Source of the DNA: Halobellus sp. MBLA0158
GTDB taxonomy: Archaea > Halobacteriota > Halobacteria > Halobacteriales > Haloferacaceae
DNA: 64,000 nucleotides
Reading direction: 5' to 3'
Assembly (NCBI RefSeq): GCF_041477585.1
Contig: NZ_JBGNYA010000001.1
Location: 1,674,001 to 1,738,000, forward strand
The notes below the pieces were generated by a model. That model saw only the letters and a list, made by a program, of their open reading frames with translations, ran no database searches and was not told where the DNA came from. The position numbers and the translations under genes were made by a program. This document shows, piece after piece, positions 3,949 through 42,680 of the stretch; position 1 is the first letter of the stretch; the number at the start of each line of letters is the position of its first letter.

Positions 3949-4947
3949 ATGAGTCTCTCTCGATACGTCGCCCGCCGGCTGGGTCAGTCGCTCTTCACGC
4001 TCCTCGGCGTCGTCACGATCACGTTTCTCCTCGTCAACGCCGCCCCGGGCGATCCGGTCCGGATCTTCATCGGCCCGAGCGCCGACGCGTCGGCCATCGC
4101 CGCGATGCGGGCGCAGTTCGGGCTCGACCAGCCGATCCACATCCGATACGTCAAGTACCTGCTCAGCGTCGCCCAGGGCGACCTCGGGCAGAGTATCAAC
4201 TACCGGGTGCCGGTGACACAGAAAATCCTCGAACGGCTTCCGGCGACGCTTCTTCTGGTCGCGTCCAGTTTCACCTTCGCGATCGCCACCGCCGTCCCGA
4301 TCGGCGTGCTTTCGGCGAAGCGCCGGAATCACCTCTCGGACCACGTCTTCCGGATCTTCGGTCTCATCGGGGTGAGCACGCCGAGCTTCTGGATCGGGCT
4401 GCTCTTGATCATCATCCTCACGTACCACCTCGGCCTGCTCCCGGCGACGGGCCTCGTGATGCCGTGGGCGGCCCCCTCGGCGGTCGATCACGCGACGACG
4501 CGACTCGACGTGCTCTATCAGTCCGGGATCCACCTCATCATGCCGACGCTGACGCTGGGAACGCTTCAGATGGCCGCGATAATGCGTATCGAACGCTCCT
4601 CGATGCTCGAAGTACTGAACCAGGAGTACGTGTCGCTGGCGCGGGCCTTCGGCGTCCCGGAGCGGACGATACTCCGGAAACACGCCTTCCGCAACGCACA
4701 GCTCCCCGTGTTGACCGTGATCGGACTCAATCTGACGACCGCGCTCGGGGGATCGGTCCTCACCGAGACGGTCTTCAGCATCAACGGCATCGGAACGCTG
4801 ATCATCACCGGCGTGAACGCCCGAGATTACCCGCTCATCCTCGGGACGACGCTGTTTTACGCGTCGCTGTTCGTCGTCGGCGTCCTCATCACGGACGTGC
4901 TCTACGCGTACCTCGATCCGCGGATCTCCTACGGGGATGAGAACTGA
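3949..4947 (+). CDS. ABC transporter permease, DppB-like
   Basis: A 332-residue inner-membrane permease of the oligopeptide type. It starts with the conserved YVARRLGQSLFTLLGVVTITFLL first helix and has about six membrane segments. The cytoplasmic coupling (EAA) loop near residues 222-246 reads EYVSLARAFGVPERTILRKH and docks on the ATPases. The NYRVPVTQKILERLPATLLLV and LTETVFSINGIGTLI blocks are typical of DppB. It begins 29 nt after the binding protein gene and overlaps the next permease by one base (TGATG), implying coupled translation. It forms a heterodimeric channel with the product of 4947-5903. Confidence 0.94.
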   Translation: MSLSRYVARRLGQSLFTLLGVVTITFLLVNAAPGDPVRIFIGPSADASAIAAMRAQFGLDQPIHIRYVKYLLSVAQGDLGQSINYRVPVTQKILERLPATLLLVASSFTFAIATAVPIGVLSAKRRNHLSDHVFRIFGLIGVSTPSFWIGLLLIIILTYHLGLLPATGLVMPWAAPSAVDHATTRLDVLYQSGIHLIMPTLTLGTLQMAAIMRIERSSMLEVLNQEYVSLARAFGVPERTILRKHAFRNAQLPVLTVIGLNLTTALGGSVLTETVFSINGIGTLIITGVNARDYPLILGTTLFYASLFVVGVLITDVLYAYLDPRISYGDEN

Positions 4948-35943: not shown

Positions 35944-36054
35944 GATCCCGTCTGGCGCCGGTCCGCAGTAGACCCACGATCGATCTGTGAGTCGGACTGA
36001 CGCTTTCGTCTACCGACCCGGAAGATACAGGCCCGCGACCCGCGAGGAGTGACT

Positions 36055-36303
36055 ATGGACTGGTCGCGCACGCGCGAGGAGGCGGGGTTCGTCGAGTGGA
36101 CGCGCACGGACGGGTACGTGACGATCCGGCGGCGACGTCGCCCCGACGGTGACTGGGTGGTCCGGCTCGATCGGCTCTATCAGGCCCCGGAAGGAAGCGC
36201 CTACCGCCGGGAACGCGTCGACGACGAGGAAAGAGCCGAAGCGCTCGTCGAGACGTGGAAAGCGGAAGCCGAGCCCGACGCGGATGCCGGCTCGCGGGAC
36301 TGA
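36055..36303 (+). CDS. Small conserved haloarchaeal protein
   Basis: An 82-residue soluble protein: MDWSRTREEAGFVEWTRTD, a basic patch RRRRR at about residues 24-28, a strand DWVVRLDRLYQAPEG, then an acidic helix. It may bind nucleic acid through the basic strand, but no family function is known to me. ATG 36055 is preferred over GTG 36049. It is convergent with the CBS-ParB gene. Confidence 0.7.
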   Translation: MDWSRTREEAGFVEWTRTDGYVTIRRRRRPDGDWVVRLDRLYQAPEGSAYRRERVDDEERAEALVETWKAEAEPDADAGSRD

Positions 36304-36318
36304 CGGGAACGTCGGTCG

Positions 36319-37104
36319 CTACTCCTGGAGGCGCTGGGTGGTCTCGATCAGCGGATGTCTGCCGTAGTCGGCGATCTCGATGTCGCTGATCGACGAGAGG
36401 CCCTCCTTGTCGGCGGTGCGTTGCATCCCGAGTTCGACCTTCTCGTCGAGGACGATGACCGAGGCGTCCATCTCCTCGATCCCCAGTTGGTAGGCGGCCA
36501 TCACCCGGTGGTGTCCGTCGGCCAGCAGCAGGTCGCCGCCATTGTCGATGACGACGAGCGGCTCCGCGAGCCCGCGTTCGAGCTCGTACTGGCGGCCTTC
36601 GAGTTCGTCGGCGTAGACGCGGGCCTGCGTCGGCGTGAGGTCGTCGAGCCTGACCGTCCGCGACTCCTGGTGGACCGTGATCTCGTGGATCTGTTCGAGG
36701 GTCCGCATCAGCTTGCCGACCTTCTCGGGGGTGGCGCGCTCGATCTGCGAGCGGACGACGTCCGTGTTCGAGATGATCCCGACGAGGTTGTCGGCGTCGT
36801 CGACGACGGGCAGCTTCTGGATCCCAGAGCGCAACATCACGCGCGCGGCGTCGATCATATCCATCTCCGGGTCGGCGACGATGATGTCCTCTGTCATCAC
36901 CGTGAAGATGGGGTCCTCGTCGCCGACCAAGAGCAGGTCCCTGGCGGTGACAAAGCCCTCGACTTTCCGCCCCTCCGAGACGGGAAACCCGTTGTGCCCC
37001 TCCGTCTCCTTGATCCGACGGGCGACGTCGGCGACGGTGTCCGACGGCGAGACCGTCTGTACCTCGCGCGTCATGTACTCCTTTACCTGCGGTCTCCCGC
37101 TCAT
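36319..37104 (-). CDS. CBS-pair protein fused to a ParB/SerK-like domain
   Basis: A 261-residue protein. Two CBS repeats at about residues 7-62 and 67-122 form a Bateman module that binds adenine nucleotides. Residues about 145-225 form a ParB/sulfiredoxin-fold domain with the active-site-like motif LLLADGHHRVMAA (DGHHR at 196-200). There is no ParB DNA-binding HTH, so chromosome partition is unlikely. The same fold includes the ADP-dependent free-serine kinase SerK of Thermococcales. A nucleotide-sensing kinase is therefore a fair guess, unproven. Confidence 0.85.
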   Translation of the reverse strand: MSGRPQVKEYMTREVQTVSPSDTVADVARRIKETEGHNGFPVSEGRKVEGFVTARDLLLVGDEDPIFTVMTEDIIVADPEMDMIDAARVMLRSGIQKLPVVDDADNLVGIISNTDVVRSQIERATPEKVGKLMRTLEQIHEITVHQESRTVRLDDLTPTQARVYADELEGRQYELERGLAEPLVVIDNGGDLLLADGHHRVMAAYQLGIEEMDASVIVLDEKVELGMQRTADKEGLSSISDIEIADYGRHPLIETTQRLQE

Positions 37105-37189
37105 CGTGAGCCGATACGCGGCGCCCGTGCAAAAGCGTCCCGACCGTGGAGAAAATAACAGTGAACAGCGCGGCCGAACGGGCGTCGGC

Positions 37190-38677
37190 TCACTCCGGGT
37201 CCTCGTCCCGATCCCACGCGCCGAAGGGATACTCCGCGGACCAGCCGGCGTCGCCCTCGCCGATCCCCAGGAGCGTCGTCGCGTCGTCCAGGGTCTCGAA
37301 CAGGCGACTCGCGATCACGTCGGTGACGATCCGTTCGAGATCCGCCGCCGAGTCCTCGTCGCTCTCGGCGAGGATCCCGAGCGGGACCTGCGCGCCGGCC
37401 ATATCCGCGTGCCCGCCCGCGCTGCCGATGGCGTCGAACGCGTCCCGGAGCGTCTCGCCGAGGTCGACGTCGGTCCCGCGGGCGCGGCCCGAGACGTAGA
37501 CGGTGCCGTCCTTGAAGCCGTAGATGACGGCGATCCGGATTCCCTCCATGTTCAGCAGGCGATCGGCCGCCTGCGCGAGGGCGTCCCGGTCGGAGATCGC
37601 GCCGACGTTCGACGCGAGGGCGTCGCCGCGGACGTCGCGGTTGCGGATCGCGCGAGCCAGCGTCTCCAGCACCGCAGAGGTCATACTCGGCGACTCGACG
37701 CGGTCCAAAAGCGAGAGGTCCGCGTGCGAGAGGAGCCACGCGGCCGCGCCGAAGTCGGCCGGCGAGACCTCCCGCGAGAAGTCGTTGGTGTCGACCCGGA
37801 TCCCGAAGAGGAGCGCGGTCGCCAGCGACTCGTCGGGGTCGATCCCCGCCCGTCGGAGGTAGTCCGTCACGAGGGTACTCGTCGCACCGATATCGCGTCT
37901 GAGGTCGATGAAGTGCGCCTCGACGGGGGCCCGCGGCGGATGGTGATCGACGACGACGTCGACGGTCGTGTCCTCGGGGAGGCCGTCGTTGACGCCGGGG
38001 CGGGAGTGGTCGACGAGCGCGACGCCGGCGTACTCATCGAGTTCCGAGCCGGATTCCAGTTCGACGAGATCCAATCCGAGGAGGTTCACGAGCGCGCGGT
38101 TCTCCTGGTGGGAGATGTCGCCGAAGTAGCACGCGTCGGCGGGGACATCGAGCGTGGCGGCGATCCGCGCCACCGCGAGCGCGCTCGCGATGGCGTCGGG
38201 GTCGGGGTTGTCGTGCATCACGACCGCCAGCCGGCCGTCGATCCGACGCAGCGTCGCGAACAGGCGTTGCAGTTGTTCGGCGCCGGGGCCGACCGCCAGC
38301 TCCTGAACGCGGTCGACGAGCGTCTCCCGGACGTCGACGACGCGGTCGGCGGCCGAATCGAGGCGGTCTCGCGTGGTCGGATCCGCCGACGTGCTCGCCA
38401 GGCCGACGATCTGCGCGTCGGGATACGCCGCCCGCGCCCGCTCGGCCGCTGCGGCGTTCGCCGCGTCGTCGTCGCTGGCGACGTAGACGAGGTCTGCTCG
38501 CGGCGGCAGCGCGTCGTCGTCGATACTGGTGTGCTCGACTGACACACCGCTCCCGATGCCGTCCGGGACTGTCTCGTTCTCGCCAGCGACGATCGTCAAC
38601 TCCCCGGGCCAGGAGGCGAGGCGCTCGACGGTCTCGCGTGCGATCGATCCGCACCCGAGGACCAGCCGCCGTTGCAT
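37190..38677 (-). CDS. TrkA-N/RCK-N plus DHH-DHHA1 phosphoesterase
   Basis: A 495-residue protein. Residues 1-115 are a Rossmann TrkA-N domain (RRLVLGCGSIARETVERLA; VYVASDDDAANAAAAE). The DHH domain follows (MHDNPDPDAIASALAVARI, VDHSRPG, VVVDHHPPR) with Mn-binding Asp/His residues. DHHA1 ends with GSAGGHADMAGAQVP. It cleaves phosphodiester bonds in small nucleotides, such as nanoRNA, pAp or c-di-AMP. RCK-N-DHH-DHHA1 architecture has been linked to c-di-AMP turnover in euryarchaea, which fits a ligand-sensing N-domain. ATG 38677 matches the domain start. Confidence 0.88.
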   Translation of the reverse strand: MQRRLVLGCGSIARETVERLASWPGELTIVAGENETVPDGIGSGVSVEHTSIDDDALPPRADLVYVASDDDAANAAAAERARAAYPDAQIVGLASTSADPTTRDRLDSAADRVVDVRETLVDRVQELAVGPGAEQLQRLFATLRRIDGRLAVVMHDNPDPDAIASALAVARIAATLDVPADACYFGDISHQENRALVNLLGLDLVELESGSELDEYAGVALVDHSRPGVNDGLPEDTTVDVVVDHHPPRAPVEAHFIDLRRDIGATSTLVTDYLRRAGIDPDESLATALLFGIRVDTNDFSREVSPADFGAAAWLLSHADLSLLDRVESPSMTSAVLETLARAIRNRDVRGDALASNVGAISDRDALAQAADRLLNMEGIRIAVIYGFKDGTVYVSGRARGTDVDLGETLRDAFDAIGSAGGHADMAGAQVPLGILAESDEDSAADLERIVTDVIASRLFETLDDATTLLGIGEGDAGWSAEYPFGAWDRDEDPE

Positions 38678-38710
38678 ACGCGGACGTCCGGACGCGGGCG
38701 CTAAAAACAC

Positions 38711-38782
38711 CCCACCTTTTTGCTGACTCGGGTGCGCCTCCGGCGCACCGCTCGTTGCAAAAAGCTGGACCAAAAAACGTCC
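38711..38782. repeat. Left 72-bp inverted repeat (IR-L) with hairpin
   Basis: Starting CCCACCTTTTTGCTG and ending AAAAAACGTCC, this aligns end to end with the reverse complement of 39565-39637. In its centre GGTGCGCC (38731-38738) pairs with GGCGCACC (38742-38749) around loop TCC. Flanking CTTTTTGC and TTGCAAAAAG can also pair, extending the stem. It lies upstream of the DHH gene start. A second hairpin, CGCCGCC-TTC-GGCGGCG, follows at 38787-38803. Confidence 0.85.
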
Positions 38783-38852
38783 GACTCGCCGCCTTCGGCG
38801 GCGTCGTCGGTGAACCGCTCGCTCCGCTCGCGGACCCAGTTTCGACAAAGCA

Positions 38853-38860
38853 TTTACATA
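38853..38860 (+). promoter_or_regulatory. TATA box of the lipoprotein gene
   Basis: TTTACATA lies 28 nt before ATG 38881, after an A-rich GACAAAG that could be the BRE. The distance implies a leaderless mRNA. The box sits between the left repeat and the gene, so the unit carries its own promoter. Confidence 0.6.
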
Positions 38861-38880
38861 TTTCGCGGGGACTACTCCGT

Positions 38881-39468
38881 ATGCCTCTCCTCAAACGACG
38901 TCAGCTCCTCAATGTCGGTGCTACTCTGGGCTCGACAGCACTTGTGGGATGCACAGCGGTTCGTTATGATGCTTCTAGCACGGCTACAAAAGCCTCTGGA
39001 GAGTCTCCACCAGTTCGTGGAGACGCTGAGCCGATCGAAATCGAACAGACGTTCTCCAGCGAGACGTACACGTATCTTTCCAGTAATGATACAGTGAAAT
39101 ATCCCAAATCCCGTTCTGGTGAAGAGGGTGGCAGATACGGCTCCCGTCCATTCGCAGACTGGGCGTACACGAAGGGTGCGTCAGTAAGCGCGAGCGCAGT
39201 ATCGGATCGCCTTCAAGAGCGAGTCTCCGCGGAAGATGCGCTCTCTGTTGGGACATCGTCACAACCCAACGACGGCAGTCGTGTGATGATCAGATTAGAG
39301 ACGACCACGAACAGAAGTGGGGACGTACTCACAGAGCCGTCGGTCTCACAACCGTCCGTTGTTGATGTGACGCCCTCAAGTGTCACAGCTACGGTTCTCC
39401 TCGCCCACCAAGAAGCCGTCAATACCTACCCGGTCTATGTGACGCAATTGACTCGGCAACAAGTGTAG
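38881..39468 (+). CDS. Tat-exported lipoprotein of unknown function
   Basis: A 195-residue protein. A Tat-like signal (LLKRRQLLNVG, residues 3-13) leads to lipobox LVGC with Cys24. A Ser/Thr/Glu-rich linker follows, then a mixed beta-rich body without a motif I know (EQTFSSETYTYLSSNDT; RVMIRLETTTNRSGD; VTATVLLAHQEAVNTYPVYVTQL). Codon use differs sharply from neighbours, with many A/T-ending codons such as AAA, TCT and GAT, and the gene contains a CTAG, a tetramer usually rare in haloarchaeal DNA. Both point to recent transfer. It is bounded by inverted repeats at 38711-38782 and 39565-39637. Confidence 0.8.
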   Translation: MPLLKRRQLLNVGATLGSTALVGCTAVRYDASSTATKASGESPPVRGDAEPIEIEQTFSSETYTYLSSNDTVKYPKSRSGEEGGRYGSRPFADWAYTKGASVSASAVSDRLQERVSAEDALSVGTSSQPNDGSRVMIRLETTTNRSGDVLTEPSVSQPSVVDVTPSSVTATVLLAHQEAVNTYPVYVTQLTRQQV

Positions 39469-39564
39469 TGCGATATCCCTGCCAAGGCTATTCAGAAAAT
39501 CACCTCAGCAACGGCAGTAAGGAAGAGAACAGCGTATGTCAGCAAATATATAAATCCACAAATT

Positions 39565-39637
39565 GGACGCTTTTTCGTCCAGCTTTTTGCAAGGGAGCGG
39601 TCGCGCAAAGCGCGACCCGACGCAGCAAAAAGGTGGG
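39565..39637. repeat. Right 73-bp inverted repeat (IR-R) with hairpin; also 3' end of nuo operon
   Basis: This is the reverse complement partner of 38711-38782. The outer 15 bases, the TTGCAAAAAGCTGGAC block and the CGTCC end are conserved. Its central stem is GGTCGCGC (39599-39606) with GCGCGACC (39610-39617) around AAA, so four base pairs of the stem are swapped yet still pair. On the minus strand it starts two bases after the nuoN stop and contains TTTTT, so it may also terminate the nuo transcript. The 39469-39564 stretch holds no gene that I can see. Confidence 0.85.
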
Positions 39638-39639
39638 TT

Positions 39640-41154
39640 CTAGAACAGCGCCGCAGCGACCGACTGCGCGGTCTCGATGACCGGGCCGAAGCCGGGCAGC
39701 AGGAGCAGCGTCCCGATCCCGGCGAACAGCACCGCGGCGTAGAGGCCGACCGGACGGCTTCCGATCTCGAAGTCGCCCGCCGGCTCTTCGATCCACATCG
39801 CCTTCACGACGCGGCTGTAGTAGAACAGCGACAGCGCGCTGTTGATCGCGCCGACGGCGGCGAGCCACCAGAACCCGGCCTCGATGGCCGAGTAGAAGAG
39901 GGCGTACTTCGAGAGGAAGCCCCCGAACGGCGGCAGGCCCGCGAGGCTGAACATGAACACCGTCATCGCCACGGCGGCGACCGGTGCGGCCGACGCGAGG
40001 CCGTTGTAGTCCTCGAAGGTGCGGCCGACGCCCCAGTGTTCGACCAGGGCGATGAACAGGAACGCGCCCGTGTTCATAAAGCCGTAGACGAGCAGGTGGG
40101 CCATCGACGCCCCCAGGACGTCACCGTTGGGACCGCCCGCCGACAGCGCCGCGAGGCCGATGAGCGCGTAGCCCGCGTGTCCGATCGAGGAGTACGCGAG
40201 CATCCGCTTTACTTTCTCCTGGGTGGCCGCGGCGAAGTTCCCGAGCGTCATCGTGACGACCGCGAGCACCTGGAACGCGAGCACCCAGTCGACGCCCGCC
40301 GGGATCGCTCCCAGCGGGAAGGCCTCGACGAAGACGCGGAACGCGACCGCGAAGCCGGCGGCCTTCGACGCCGACGAGAGGAAGCCCGAGATCGGCGCGG
40401 GCGCGCCCTCGTAGGCCTCCGGCGCCCAGAAGTGGAACGGCACGGAGGCGGTCTTGAACGCGAACCCGCCGACGATCATCAGGACGCCGATACCGAGGAC
40501 CCCGACCATCTCCGAGCCCTCGACTGCGCTCGCGACGTCGCCGAAGATCATCGAGCCGGAGGTGGCGTACACCAGGCTGATCCCGAAGGCGAACACGGCC
40601 GACGACACCGCCCCGATCAGGAAGTACTTGAGCCCGGCCTCGACGCTCCCCTTGTCCTCTTTGAGGTACGCGACGAGCGCGTAGGAGGGGATCGACGCGA
40701 GCTCCAGGCTCACGAACGCGGTCGCGAGCGAGTTCGCCATCGCCATCAGGGTCATCCCCGTGGCGGCGAACAGCACGAGGGCGTAGAACTCCGCCCGGTG
40801 GCGCTGCTCGCGGAGGTAGTCGTAAGACGCGACGACCACCATCGCGGTGACGATCGTGAAGATGAGCGTGAAGAACAGGCTCATCCCGTCGACGACCAGG
40901 GCGTCGCCGTACAGCGTGATCTCGCCGCCGGTCCGCGTCTGACCGGTGCCGGCGACGAGGAACCACGCCGTGACGCCGAAGGCGAGCAGCGAACCGACCG
41001 CCGAGGTGACGGCCAGGACCGTGTTGCTGGTCTCGTCGGGCCACAGCATATCGATGCCGAGCAGGACCAGCCCGGTCACGCCGAGCAGGATCGTGGGCGC
41101 GAGCGCGGACCACATCGGAGTGCCCGCGTCCGCGGACTGGAGGAGGAGCGACAT
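39640..41154 (-). CDS. nuoN: NADH-quinone oxidoreductase subunit N
   Basis: A 504-residue antiporter-like membrane subunit with about fourteen helices. Typical blocks are LVAYLKEDKGSVEAGLKYFLIGAVSSAVFAFGIS, FWAPEAYEGAPAPISGFLSSASKAAGFA and KRMLAYSSIGHAGYALIG, with conserved Lys and Glu of the proton path. It is the last gene of the nuo operon. ATG 41154 overlaps the nuoM stop by one base; GTG 41157 would give a four-base overlap. Confidence 0.96.
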   Translation of the reverse strand: MSLLLQSADAGTPMWSALAPTILLGVTGLVLLGIDMLWPDETSNTVLAVTSAVGSLLAFGVTAWFLVAGTGQTRTGGEITLYGDALVVDGMSLFFTLIFTIVTAMVVVASYDYLREQRHRAEFYALVLFAATGMTLMAMANSLATAFVSLELASIPSYALVAYLKEDKGSVEAGLKYFLIGAVSSAVFAFGISLVYATSGSMIFGDVASAVEGSEMVGVLGIGVLMIVGGFAFKTASVPFHFWAPEAYEGAPAPISGFLSSASKAAGFAVAFRVFVEAFPLGAIPAGVDWVLAFQVLAVVTMTLGNFAAATQEKVKRMLAYSSIGHAGYALIGLAALSAGGPNGDVLGASMAHLLVYGFMNTGAFLFIALVEHWGVGRTFEDYNGLASAAPVAAVAMTVFMFSLAGLPPFGGFLSKYALFYSAIEAGFWWLAAVGAINSALSLFYYSRVVKAMWIEEPAGDFEIGSRPVGLYAAVLFAGIGTLLLLPGFGPVIETAQSVAAALF

Positions 41155-42680
41155 CACAGCCCACCTCCCGTCAGGATCGGATTAACAGCGTCTTGGATCA
41201 TCCCGAAGAAGAGGTCGGGGGCGACCCCGAGGACGATGACCAAGAGCAGGAGGACGGCCAGCGGCGCGACGTCGTGGGTCGGCGCCTCCGTGATCTCGTA
41301 CTCGCCGTCGAAGCTGAACGGGCCGAACAGCGTCCGCTGCATCGCGAAGAGCAGGTAGCCCGCGACGATCACGATGCCGAACATCGCCGCCCCGGTGAAG
41401 AGCGGCATCGCCGAGTGGACCGTGGAGGCGAACGAGCCCTTGAAGATGAAGAACTCGCCCGCGAAGCCAGCCATCAGCGGCAGGCCCATATAGCCGAACG
41501 CGCCGGCGACGAAGATGCCGGCGGTGACCGGCATCCGGTCGGCGATGCCGGACATATCGCCCACCATCCGGGTGTGGGTCGTGTTGTAGATCACGCCGAC
41601 CGCCATAAACATCAGCCCCGAGATGAGGCCGTGGGCGATCATCTGGAACGTCGCGCCGCCGACCCCGTAGGTCGTGTACGCGACGAGCCCGAGGATGACG
41701 TAGCCCATCGAGGACACAGACGAGTACGCGACGATGCGCTTGAGGTCCTGCTGGGCGAGCGCGAGCAGCGCGCCATAGATCACGCTGATCACGGCGATCC
41801 CCGCGATGGGGACGACGAGCGCGGTCGCGACGTCGGGCATCATCGTGAAGTTGAACCGCAGCAGGGCGTAGGTCCCCATCTTCAGGAGGACGCCAGCCAG
41901 CATCACGGACACCGGCGTCGGCGCCTCGACGTGGGCGTCCGGCAGCCAGGTGTGCAGCGGCGCGACGGGCACCTTCACCGCGAAGCCGAGGAACGTCGCC
42001 ACGAAGGCGACGGTCTTCAGCGTCGCGGCGTTCAGCCCCGCGAAGCCGCCGAGTTCGCCGGCCCGAAGCGCCTGGGCGATCTCCGGCAGCCGCATCGACG
42101 ACACCGAGTCGCCGAGGCCGAAGACCAGGGCGATGAACCCGATGAACATCACGAGCGACGCGATGTTCGTGTACACGAAGAACTTGATCGCGGCGTAGCG
42201 GCGATTGGGACCGCCCCAGACGCCGATGAGGAAGTACATCGGGACCAGCACGGCCTCCCAGAAGACGAACCACGCGAAGAAGTCCAAGGCGGTGAAGACG
42301 CCGAGGAGGTTCGCCTCCATAAAGAGCATCAGCCCGTAGAACTGGGACTGGCGCTCGGAGATCGGCGTCCACGCGCTGACGATCGCGAGCGTCGAGAGGA
42401 TCGTCGTGAGGACCAAGAGGGGAAGGCTGATGCCGTCGACGCCCACGAACCAGTGGAGGTCGAGGCCGCCGAGCGTCAGCCAGACGAAGTCGGTCTCGAA
42501 CGCGATCGAGCCGCCCAGCAGGGCGTTGCCGCTCGCGTCGTACTGTGCCCACATCCAGAGGCTCCCGAGGACCGGGAGCACGCTGAGTGCCGCCGCGAGT
42601 CGACCGGCGTACTCGTCGGGGGCGACGAACACGACCAGCGCGGCGAGGAACGTGACAGCGATGAGCGCTTCAATGATCAT
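41154..42680 (-). CDS. nuoM: NADH-quinone oxidoreductase subunit M
   Basis: A 508-residue antiporter-like proton channel subunit. Diagnostic blocks are FYGLMLFMEANLLGVFTALDFFAWFVFWEAVLVPMYFLIGVWGG, HTWLPDAHVEAPTPVSVMLAGVLLKMGTYALLRF and KRIVAYSSVSSMGYVILG. It is one of three large pump modules in the membrane arm. ATG 42680 overlaps the nuoL stop in an ATGA; the frame could also begin at GTG 42689. Confidence 0.96.
   Translation of the reverse strand: MIIEALIAVTFLAALVVFVAPDEYAGRLAAALSVLPVLGSLWMWAQYDASGNALLGGSIAFETDFVWLTLGGLDLHWFVGVDGISLPLLVLTTILSTLAIVSAWTPISERQSQFYGLMLFMEANLLGVFTALDFFAWFVFWEAVLVPMYFLIGVWGGPNRRYAAIKFFVYTNIASLVMFIGFIALVFGLGDSVSSMRLPEIAQALRAGELGGFAGLNAATLKTVAFVATFLGFAVKVPVAPLHTWLPDAHVEAPTPVSVMLAGVLLKMGTYALLRFNFTMMPDVATALVVPIAGIAVISVIYGALLALAQQDLKRIVAYSSVSSMGYVILGLVAYTTYGVGGATFQMIAHGLISGLMFMAVGVIYNTTHTRMVGDMSGIADRMPVTAGIFVAGAFGYMGLPLMAGFAGEFFIFKGSFASTVHSAMPLFTGAAMFGIVIVAGYLLFAMQRTLFGPFSFDGEYEITEAPTHDVAPLAVLLLLVIVLGVAPDLFFGMIQDAVNPILTGGGL

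Follow-up and report, generated by a model that had tools for sequence, protein, structure and literature searches.

Two mirrored repeats flank a single gene for a lipoprotein-like protein in Halobellus sp. MBLA0158, within a stretch of 64,000 nucleotides that was analyzed as a whole and is referred to here as the window. On either side of this arrangement lie a nuoN-like gene and a gene for a TrkA_N/DHH/DHHA1 protein (hereafter, the DHH gene). Coordinates of all features are listed in Table 1. The lipoprotein-like protein begins with the lipobox-like sequence MPLLKRRQLLNVGATLGSTALVGC. Its gene has a G+C content of 0.548 and a GC3 of 0.526, whereas the G+C content of the window is 0.682 and the neighboring nuoN and DHH genes have GC3 values of 0.958 and 0.905. 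The 16 further genomes of the genus yielded no ortholog, and just one 29% match (in genome G014). Because of its low G+C and GC3, its lack of a Pfam family and the absence of an ortholog in the genus, the gene looks foreign and, as judged from these sequence properties, was likely acquired from elsewhere.

Table 1. Features of the locus, with positions counted from the first nucleotide of the window
Feature	Coordinates	Strand	Description
TrkA_N/DHH/DHHA1 protein gene	37190..38677	-	ancestral neighbor of nuoN
TATA-like box of DHH gene	38700..38709	-	TTTTTAGC, directly beside left-element head
Left element	38712..38775	+	frame CCACCTTTTT...AAAAAGCTGGACCAAAA; covariance-model score 91.5 bits
Interior hairpin, left element	38724..38753	+	GACTCGGGTGCGCC TCC GGCGCACCGCTC
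Small tail hairpin, left element	38767..38782	+	GGAC-CAAAAAAC-GTCC
Extra GC-rich palindromes, tail side of left element	38783..38830	+	
Lipoprotein-like accessory gene	38881..39468	+	195 aa, no Pfam family, low GC3
Tail end, right element	39565..39571	-	GCGTCC, closes small tail hairpin
Right element	39572..39636	-	frame as left, interior different; covariance-model score 75.6 bits
nuoN-like NADH:quinone oxidoreductase subunit (Proton_antipo_M)	39640..41157	-	stop codon TAG at 39640-39642

The original prediction, that the repeats are homologous and preserve a structure, is borne out. The copies at 38711-38786 (plus strand) and 39565-39639 (minus strand) align end to end, and a search of the whole 3.29-Mb genome with the left copy recovers the right one at 84% identity (E=2.9e-13). 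On the strand read from head to tail, both fold far more stably than shuffled sequence (z -4.5 for the left copy and -4.2 for the right). Four pairs in the central stem are swapped between the copies with pairing kept (GGTGCGCC/GGCGCACC versus GGTCGCGC/GCGCGACC), as had been claimed. A fifth pair, outside these four, also covaries: it is C-G in the left copy and G-C in the right, and among 32 relatives it is C-G in 13, G-C in 18, U-A in 1 and unpaired in none. The outer arms, CCA.CTTTTTGC and GCAAAAAG.TGG, pair as well, with a conserved C.C mismatch between, a feature that had been missed. Each copy thus forms a single long and imperfect hairpin, and not just a stem with conserved flanks. In each copy, this hairpin is followed by a small GGAC..GTCC hairpin, and palindromes like those beyond the tail of the left element come after most copies of the family described below. 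Target-site duplications around 38711-39639 are not visible, in agreement with the original prediction, and a scan of positions 36000-42000 yielded no Rfam match at either repeat.

The two elements face each other tail to tail. The CCACC head of the left element points toward the start of the DHH gene, 34 bp away, and the head of the right element (CCCACC) lies 3 bp past the nuoN stop codon; both tails point toward the lipoprotein gene.

A hairpin family spread across the class

Both repeats belong to a family whose frame, CCACCTTTTT ... AAAAA-N-CTGG-NNN-AAAAA, is almost constant; the hairpin inside it changes freely and nearly always retains pairing. Interiors include TCGGGT..ACCnCTC, CGGTGGGTTTCCTCGC..GGGAACCCACCG, GCGGAGGGGTCC..GGACCCCTCCGC, ATCGGGGGTCCTCGG..CCTCGAACCCCCG and others. 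A typical element is ~65 bp in length; sizes range from about 50 to 130 bp, and the longer elements contain nested hairpins. In several elements (og05 and og24 of G010, og11 of G012 and og04 of G004) the secondary hairpins are nested in loops, forming palindromes within palindromes.

About ten copies are present in the genome from which the window was taken. A covariance model trained on 32 copies detected 3-24 copies in each of 12 genomes of the genus; the remaining five of the 17 had none. Copies were also found in 37 of 41 named genomes, including those of Haloarcula and Haloferax, and reach 45 in Halorientalis marina, 40 in Halomarina halobia and 34 in Halococcus thailandensis. The exact pattern CCACCTTTTT-N24-54-AAAAANSTGG matches in 119 of 194 genomes of the class, representing 51 of 65 genera, and the same pattern read backwards as a control has no match in any of the 194. 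Within the genus it has 89 matches, and the control again has none. A plasmid or viral origin was rejected: neither the element nor the lipoprotein gene has a plasmid match, and only 7 of 2.9 million viral contigs contain the exact pattern.

The outer CCA/TGG undergoes a compensated change to CTA/TAG. The T5/A5 pairs hardly vary, with 93-94 of 95 intact for four of the five pairs, although such conservation values are upper bounds because the scan favors frame-like copies. That T5/A5 stays nearly fixed while CCA/TGG covaries points to a constraint on the sequence of T5/A5. Given the class-wide spread and the compensatory changes, the suggestion that the repeats are two members of a dispersed intergenic hairpin family was right in substance. 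No description of this family was found in open-licence papers, and it is apparently undescribed.

Element heads, gene ends and the scarcity of TGA stops

To place the elements relative to genes, we called genes with a simple codon-usage model in 81 Halobellus regions and in 20 regions from other genera. The Halobellus regions contain 104 elements (0 in the reversed control), none of which lies inside a gene call. Among 103 Halobellus elements, 60 have heads just past a stop codon, 23 have heads before a start codon and 4 follow a tRNA gene. The first group is drawn from 69 elements whose CCACC heads point toward a gene 3' end, the 60 lying 1-10 bp past the stop codon. The second comes from 34 whose heads point toward a called gene start; these 23 heads are 33-47 bp away, directly beyond a TATA-like promoter box, and 4 of the remaining start-facing heads really trail a tRNA 3' end by 2-8 bp. 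In the other genera, 13 of 20 heads that face a 3' end are close after the stop codon (0-5 bp for 12 of them, 6 bp for the last), and one head lies 1 bp past a tRNA-Pro gene.

Tails serve as an internal control for heads. In Halobellus the tails never approach a gene to within 30 bp and are usually hundreds of base pairs away. Where a tail points toward the start of a downstream gene, the gap is, with a single exception (33 bp), at least 95 bp, and the elements therefore reside at the ends of transcription units. Within the genus, elements are found at just a few to ~25 gene ends in each genome, and several orthologous genes go without one. At one locus (L156, near 4061-4090), a fragment resembling a tRNA-Gly 3' end directly precedes an element, and the full tRNA-Gly gene is ~170 bp away; this fragment is perhaps an integration scar.

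Stop codons that touch a head are strongly biased. They comprise 37 TAA, 22 TAG and 1 TGA, compared with 92 TAA, 112 TAG and 244 TGA among background calls (p=2e-17); the share of TAA plus TAG is thus 59/60 versus 204/448. For 25 genes that adjoin heads, we compared orthologs with and without the element. TGA ends 5 of 98 genes with the element and 30 of 77 without it (p=2e-8, from counts that are phylogenetically non-independent). TGA is rare only in the orthologs with the element, and the bias therefore tracks the element, not the gene alone. The same contrast lowers the standing of a pure expression effect as the cause of TGA avoidance. The TAR stop may be part of a target or of a copied unit, as TAG is in bacterial GTAG REPs (PMC3733652), or TGA may function poorly so near a transcript end. 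Past the TAA of one gene (og02 of G014, locus L310), only an element tail, AATCTGGATCAAAAAGGCCGAGC, is left, which resembles the remainder of a deleted hairpin.

A rival explanation of the family is that the element is a selfish, REP-like palindrome that inserts beside TAA/TAG or TATA-like sites, its place at gene ends being a target preference and any effect on transcription a by-product. The stop-codon preference is as this idea would have it, as is the fact that heads beside promoters adjoin CTAAAA-like boxes. Nearby copies can be near identical, and the termini of bacterial GTAG REPs often provide TAG stop codons (PMC3733652). However, the spacing between the TAR stop and the head is not fixed (0 to 9 bp), tRNA ends are used too, and no clean insertion with a target duplication was found. 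Moreover, the Y1 transposase family (PF01797) has no match in five element-bearing genomes (G003, G004, G006, G010 and G000, the genome of the window), whereas the five element-free genomes have 10-17 matches each. This striking anticorrelation may be only phylogenetic. Mobilization of the IS200/IS605, REP or PATE type was rejected, given that the Y1 family is missing from these five element-bearing genomes, and we judge a selfish repeat unlikely overall.

A variable junction and interiors that turn over

The nuoN and DHH genes are adjacent across haloarchaea, with a spacer of 42-650 bp in most genomes, and their pairing is the ancestral arrangement. In two genomes (G005 and G004, loci L058 and L059), the DHH gene is back to back with a 40%-identity paralog, and nuoN is not its neighbor. 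In the other genera examined, no element occurs at the nuoN-DHH junction. In close relatives, the promoter of the DHH gene (GACGGTAGGGTTTTG) is conserved.

Within the genus, the junction varies from species to species in the gene it holds. The gap contains the lipoprotein gene in the window, a carboxymuconolactone-decarboxylase-family (CMD) gene in G003, a NUDIX gene in G010 and G008, a small ORF in G012 and others in G006. An insert is present in all six genomes that have an element at the nuoN stop codon, and a called gene is inserted in none of the five that lack it; we have fair confidence that this link exceeds chance. The element-free gap is short in G014, G015, G009 and G016, and is 538 bp in G013. 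Thus, the empty sites that the original prediction proposed to look for do exist, but the filled site has lost ~60 bp of ancestral spacer and shows no duplication. Compared with the empty sites, the left element replaces the sequence immediately upstream of the TATA-like box of the DHH gene.

A non-autonomous mobile unit, one of the possibilities first raised, is not supported. What positions each copy is a resident gene (at the nuoN stop codon or the DHH promoter) and not the cargo. Many copies occur singly or in tandem, no duplication of the target is visible, and other genomes have entirely different cargo with an element at the nuoN stop codon retained.

In another rival explanation, the inverted pair, with heads outward, marks the ends of a unit that is inserted or exchanged whole by a recombinase, which would accept the folded hairpins much as an integrase accepts integron attC sites. 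The different genes found at one junction in different species and the missing ~60 bp of spacer are consistent with such a cassette, as is the attC-like layout, in which a variable hairpin right after the stop codon is enclosed by conserved outer boxes. Convergent pairs also exceed divergent ones: neighboring elements form 13 convergent, 2 divergent and 12 tandem pairs, with 5 of the tandem pairs belonging to one array (p=0.007 for 13 versus 2). Convergent pairs enclosing different genes or none are over-represented. Inverted pairs with different genes between them had been proposed in the original prediction as support for a cassette, but the outcome is mixed, as the same is expected if converging genes each have their own end element. 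Many convergent pairs span just 250-1000 bp without a called gene, paired elements are usually of different interior subtypes, and single and tandem copies are, as noted, common. In G010 and G008, cargo is present at the nuoN site, yet an element is found on one side only. Finally, a lone element occupies a 71-bp gap between convergent genes in G014 (locus L308, G014:C16:206123-206194); orthologs of this gene pair in other species have two elements and a gap of 650-1020 bp. We regard insertion or exchange of whole units as rather improbable, although the excess of convergent over divergent pairs gives it some weight.

Although element positions persist, their interiors do not. When species are compared at one and the same orthologous gene end, the interior similarity of their elements is 0.529; for different sites in different genomes it is 0.519. 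Because elements at the same site share no extra interior likeness, positions are stable and interiors turn over. Similarity between different sites in one genome is slightly higher (0.565; 0 of 500 permutations), and near neighbors are more often near identical. Copies might be homogenized or recopied within a genome by recombination or by a copying process. In one pair of regions (L109 3660-4190 and L115 3950-4480, from the related genomes G010 and G012), the facing elements have swapped sequences and the right half of the spacer is collinear; one element is a hybrid with one arm from each subtype. Inversion of the segment between the paired repeats was rejected for this case, in that only the element sequences are exchanged and much of the spacer is collinear. 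Elsewhere (L172 3977-6026; G005:C2:12073-14128), six elements in the same direction occur within 2 kb, spaced 86-750 bp apart with small ORFs between them, and this array looks like a product of duplication.

Predicted function and comparison with known systems

With moderate confidence, we interpret the repeats as members of a palindromic family that is anchored to gene ends and acts as a bidirectional terminator or insulator, with the foreign gene having settled between the tails and not having been moved by the elements. That an element is probably a bidirectional transcription terminator or insulator is a prediction from its anatomy and position. On both strands, a T5 tract is located at the outer edge of the element, facing outward; it starts 5 bp inside the head, and the head itself is 1-10 bp past stop codons or tRNA ends. 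In Haloferax volcanii, a T5C tract ended 95% of transcripts in vivo (PMC7237163). Transcription from either side of an element would meet T5 within ~15 nt of a gene end, and transcription from the tail side would usually meet two T tracts. At this locus, the right element would end the nuoN transcript ~15 nt past its stop codon, the left element would shield the DHH promoter against transcripts from inserted DNA, and the foreign lipoprotein gene would simply occupy loose DNA between the two tails.

Several observations fit less easily with the terminator reading. T-tract termination as known needs no hairpin, and in a bacterial-type intrinsic terminator the hairpin comes first and the U tract second. 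In the elements, T5 lies ahead of the hairpin whichever strand is read, and selection for the hairpin is therefore not explained by termination at T5 alone. Re-pairing could be selected by cruciform formation, by a protein site or by the copying process itself. Also, exclusion of TGA stops is not straightforwardly predicted by a terminator. The small number of element-bearing gene ends in each genome of the genus, and the orthologous genes that do without an element, likewise weigh against this reading.

A further rival explanation is a 3'-UTR RNA structure that protects or regulates mRNA, a stability element and not a terminator. Covariation agrees with this idea, as do strong folding on the strand that is sense for the gene at the head and the location right after stop codons. 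However, heads also adjoin the upstream side of promoters and follow tRNA genes, settings in which the 3'-UTR of an mRNA makes no sense, and T5 ahead of the hairpin should stop most transcripts before the hairpin is made. The expected strand bias of wobble pairs was not found either: G.U and A.C combinations in stems number 42 and 56, although some A.C positions may be systematic. This test gave no support to a structured RNA on one particular strand, and a 3'-UTR RNA seems highly improbable.

A broader proposal, which we consider possible though doubtful, extends the terminator reading with mobility. The element might be a class-wide gene-end cap that is mobile or self-copying and is built from constant outer boxes and an exchangeable interior. 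A non-Y1 enzyme or template switching would put it at transcript ends and promoter edges, beside TAA/TAG or TATA-like sequences, and its insulation would create safe sites for foreign genes between tails.

If bidirectional termination or insulation is correct, archaea possess a class-wide family of repeated elements for this purpose, with a frame simple enough to annotate haloarchaeal gene ends. The exchange of interiors at fixed sites, the exclusion of TGA and the link to variable genes raise questions about how haloarchaea end transcripts and accept foreign genes.

Among known systems, the archaeal T-tract terminator, such as T5C of H. volcanii (PMC7237163), shares with the elements an intergenic T5 run, in many cases T5C or T5G, soon after the gene ends. 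The elements differ in having two outward T tracts within a conserved imperfect hairpin that recurs as a sequence family, and in their distance of 1-10 bp past the stop codon, where the median 3' UTR of H. volcanii is 97 nt (PMC7237163). The order of a bacterial-type intrinsic terminator, a GC-rich hairpin followed by a U tract, is not seen, as T5 precedes the hairpin on both strands.

Like REP/BIME sequences associated with RAYT (PMC3733652), the elements are short, dispersed intergenic palindromes that often touch stop codons. However, REPs have GTAG or CGTC at the end of a 20-40-bp hairpin, whereas the copies here begin with CCACC-T5, extend about 50-130 bp and swap interiors, in a host genome without a Y1 transposase. 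The PATEs, MITEs and SMRs of Haloquadratum are likewise small noncoding haloarchaeal repeats with palindromes, and PATEs and SMRs make no target duplication (PMC3119063). PATEs are relatives of IS605 elements, and SMR-A is mostly inserted into other mobile elements (PMC3119063); by contrast, the elements here adjoin host genes, and genomes rich in Y1 transposases lack them. MITEs are recognized by terminal inverted repeats with a target-site duplication. At 38711-39639 there is no such duplication, and a loss of ~60 bp of spacer is seen instead, so identity as a MITE was rejected. No curated Rfam family covers this locus.

Integron attC sites have conserved outer boxes and a variable hairpin, and lie directly past a stop codon, a plan that the elements resemble in each respect. 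They differ from attC sites, which have R'/R'' boxes and form same-orientation arrays, in that the frame has no GTTRRRY and the elements are mostly convergent or single. Minimal mobile elements of Neisseria consist of different genes, depending on the strain, in the same gap between conserved genes, without mobility genes. The nuoN-DHH junction shows this arrangement across 11 genomes, in that the gene lying between the conserved pair differs and mobility genes are absent, and is distinguished from the neisserial case by the hairpins of a dispersed family at both edges of the gap.
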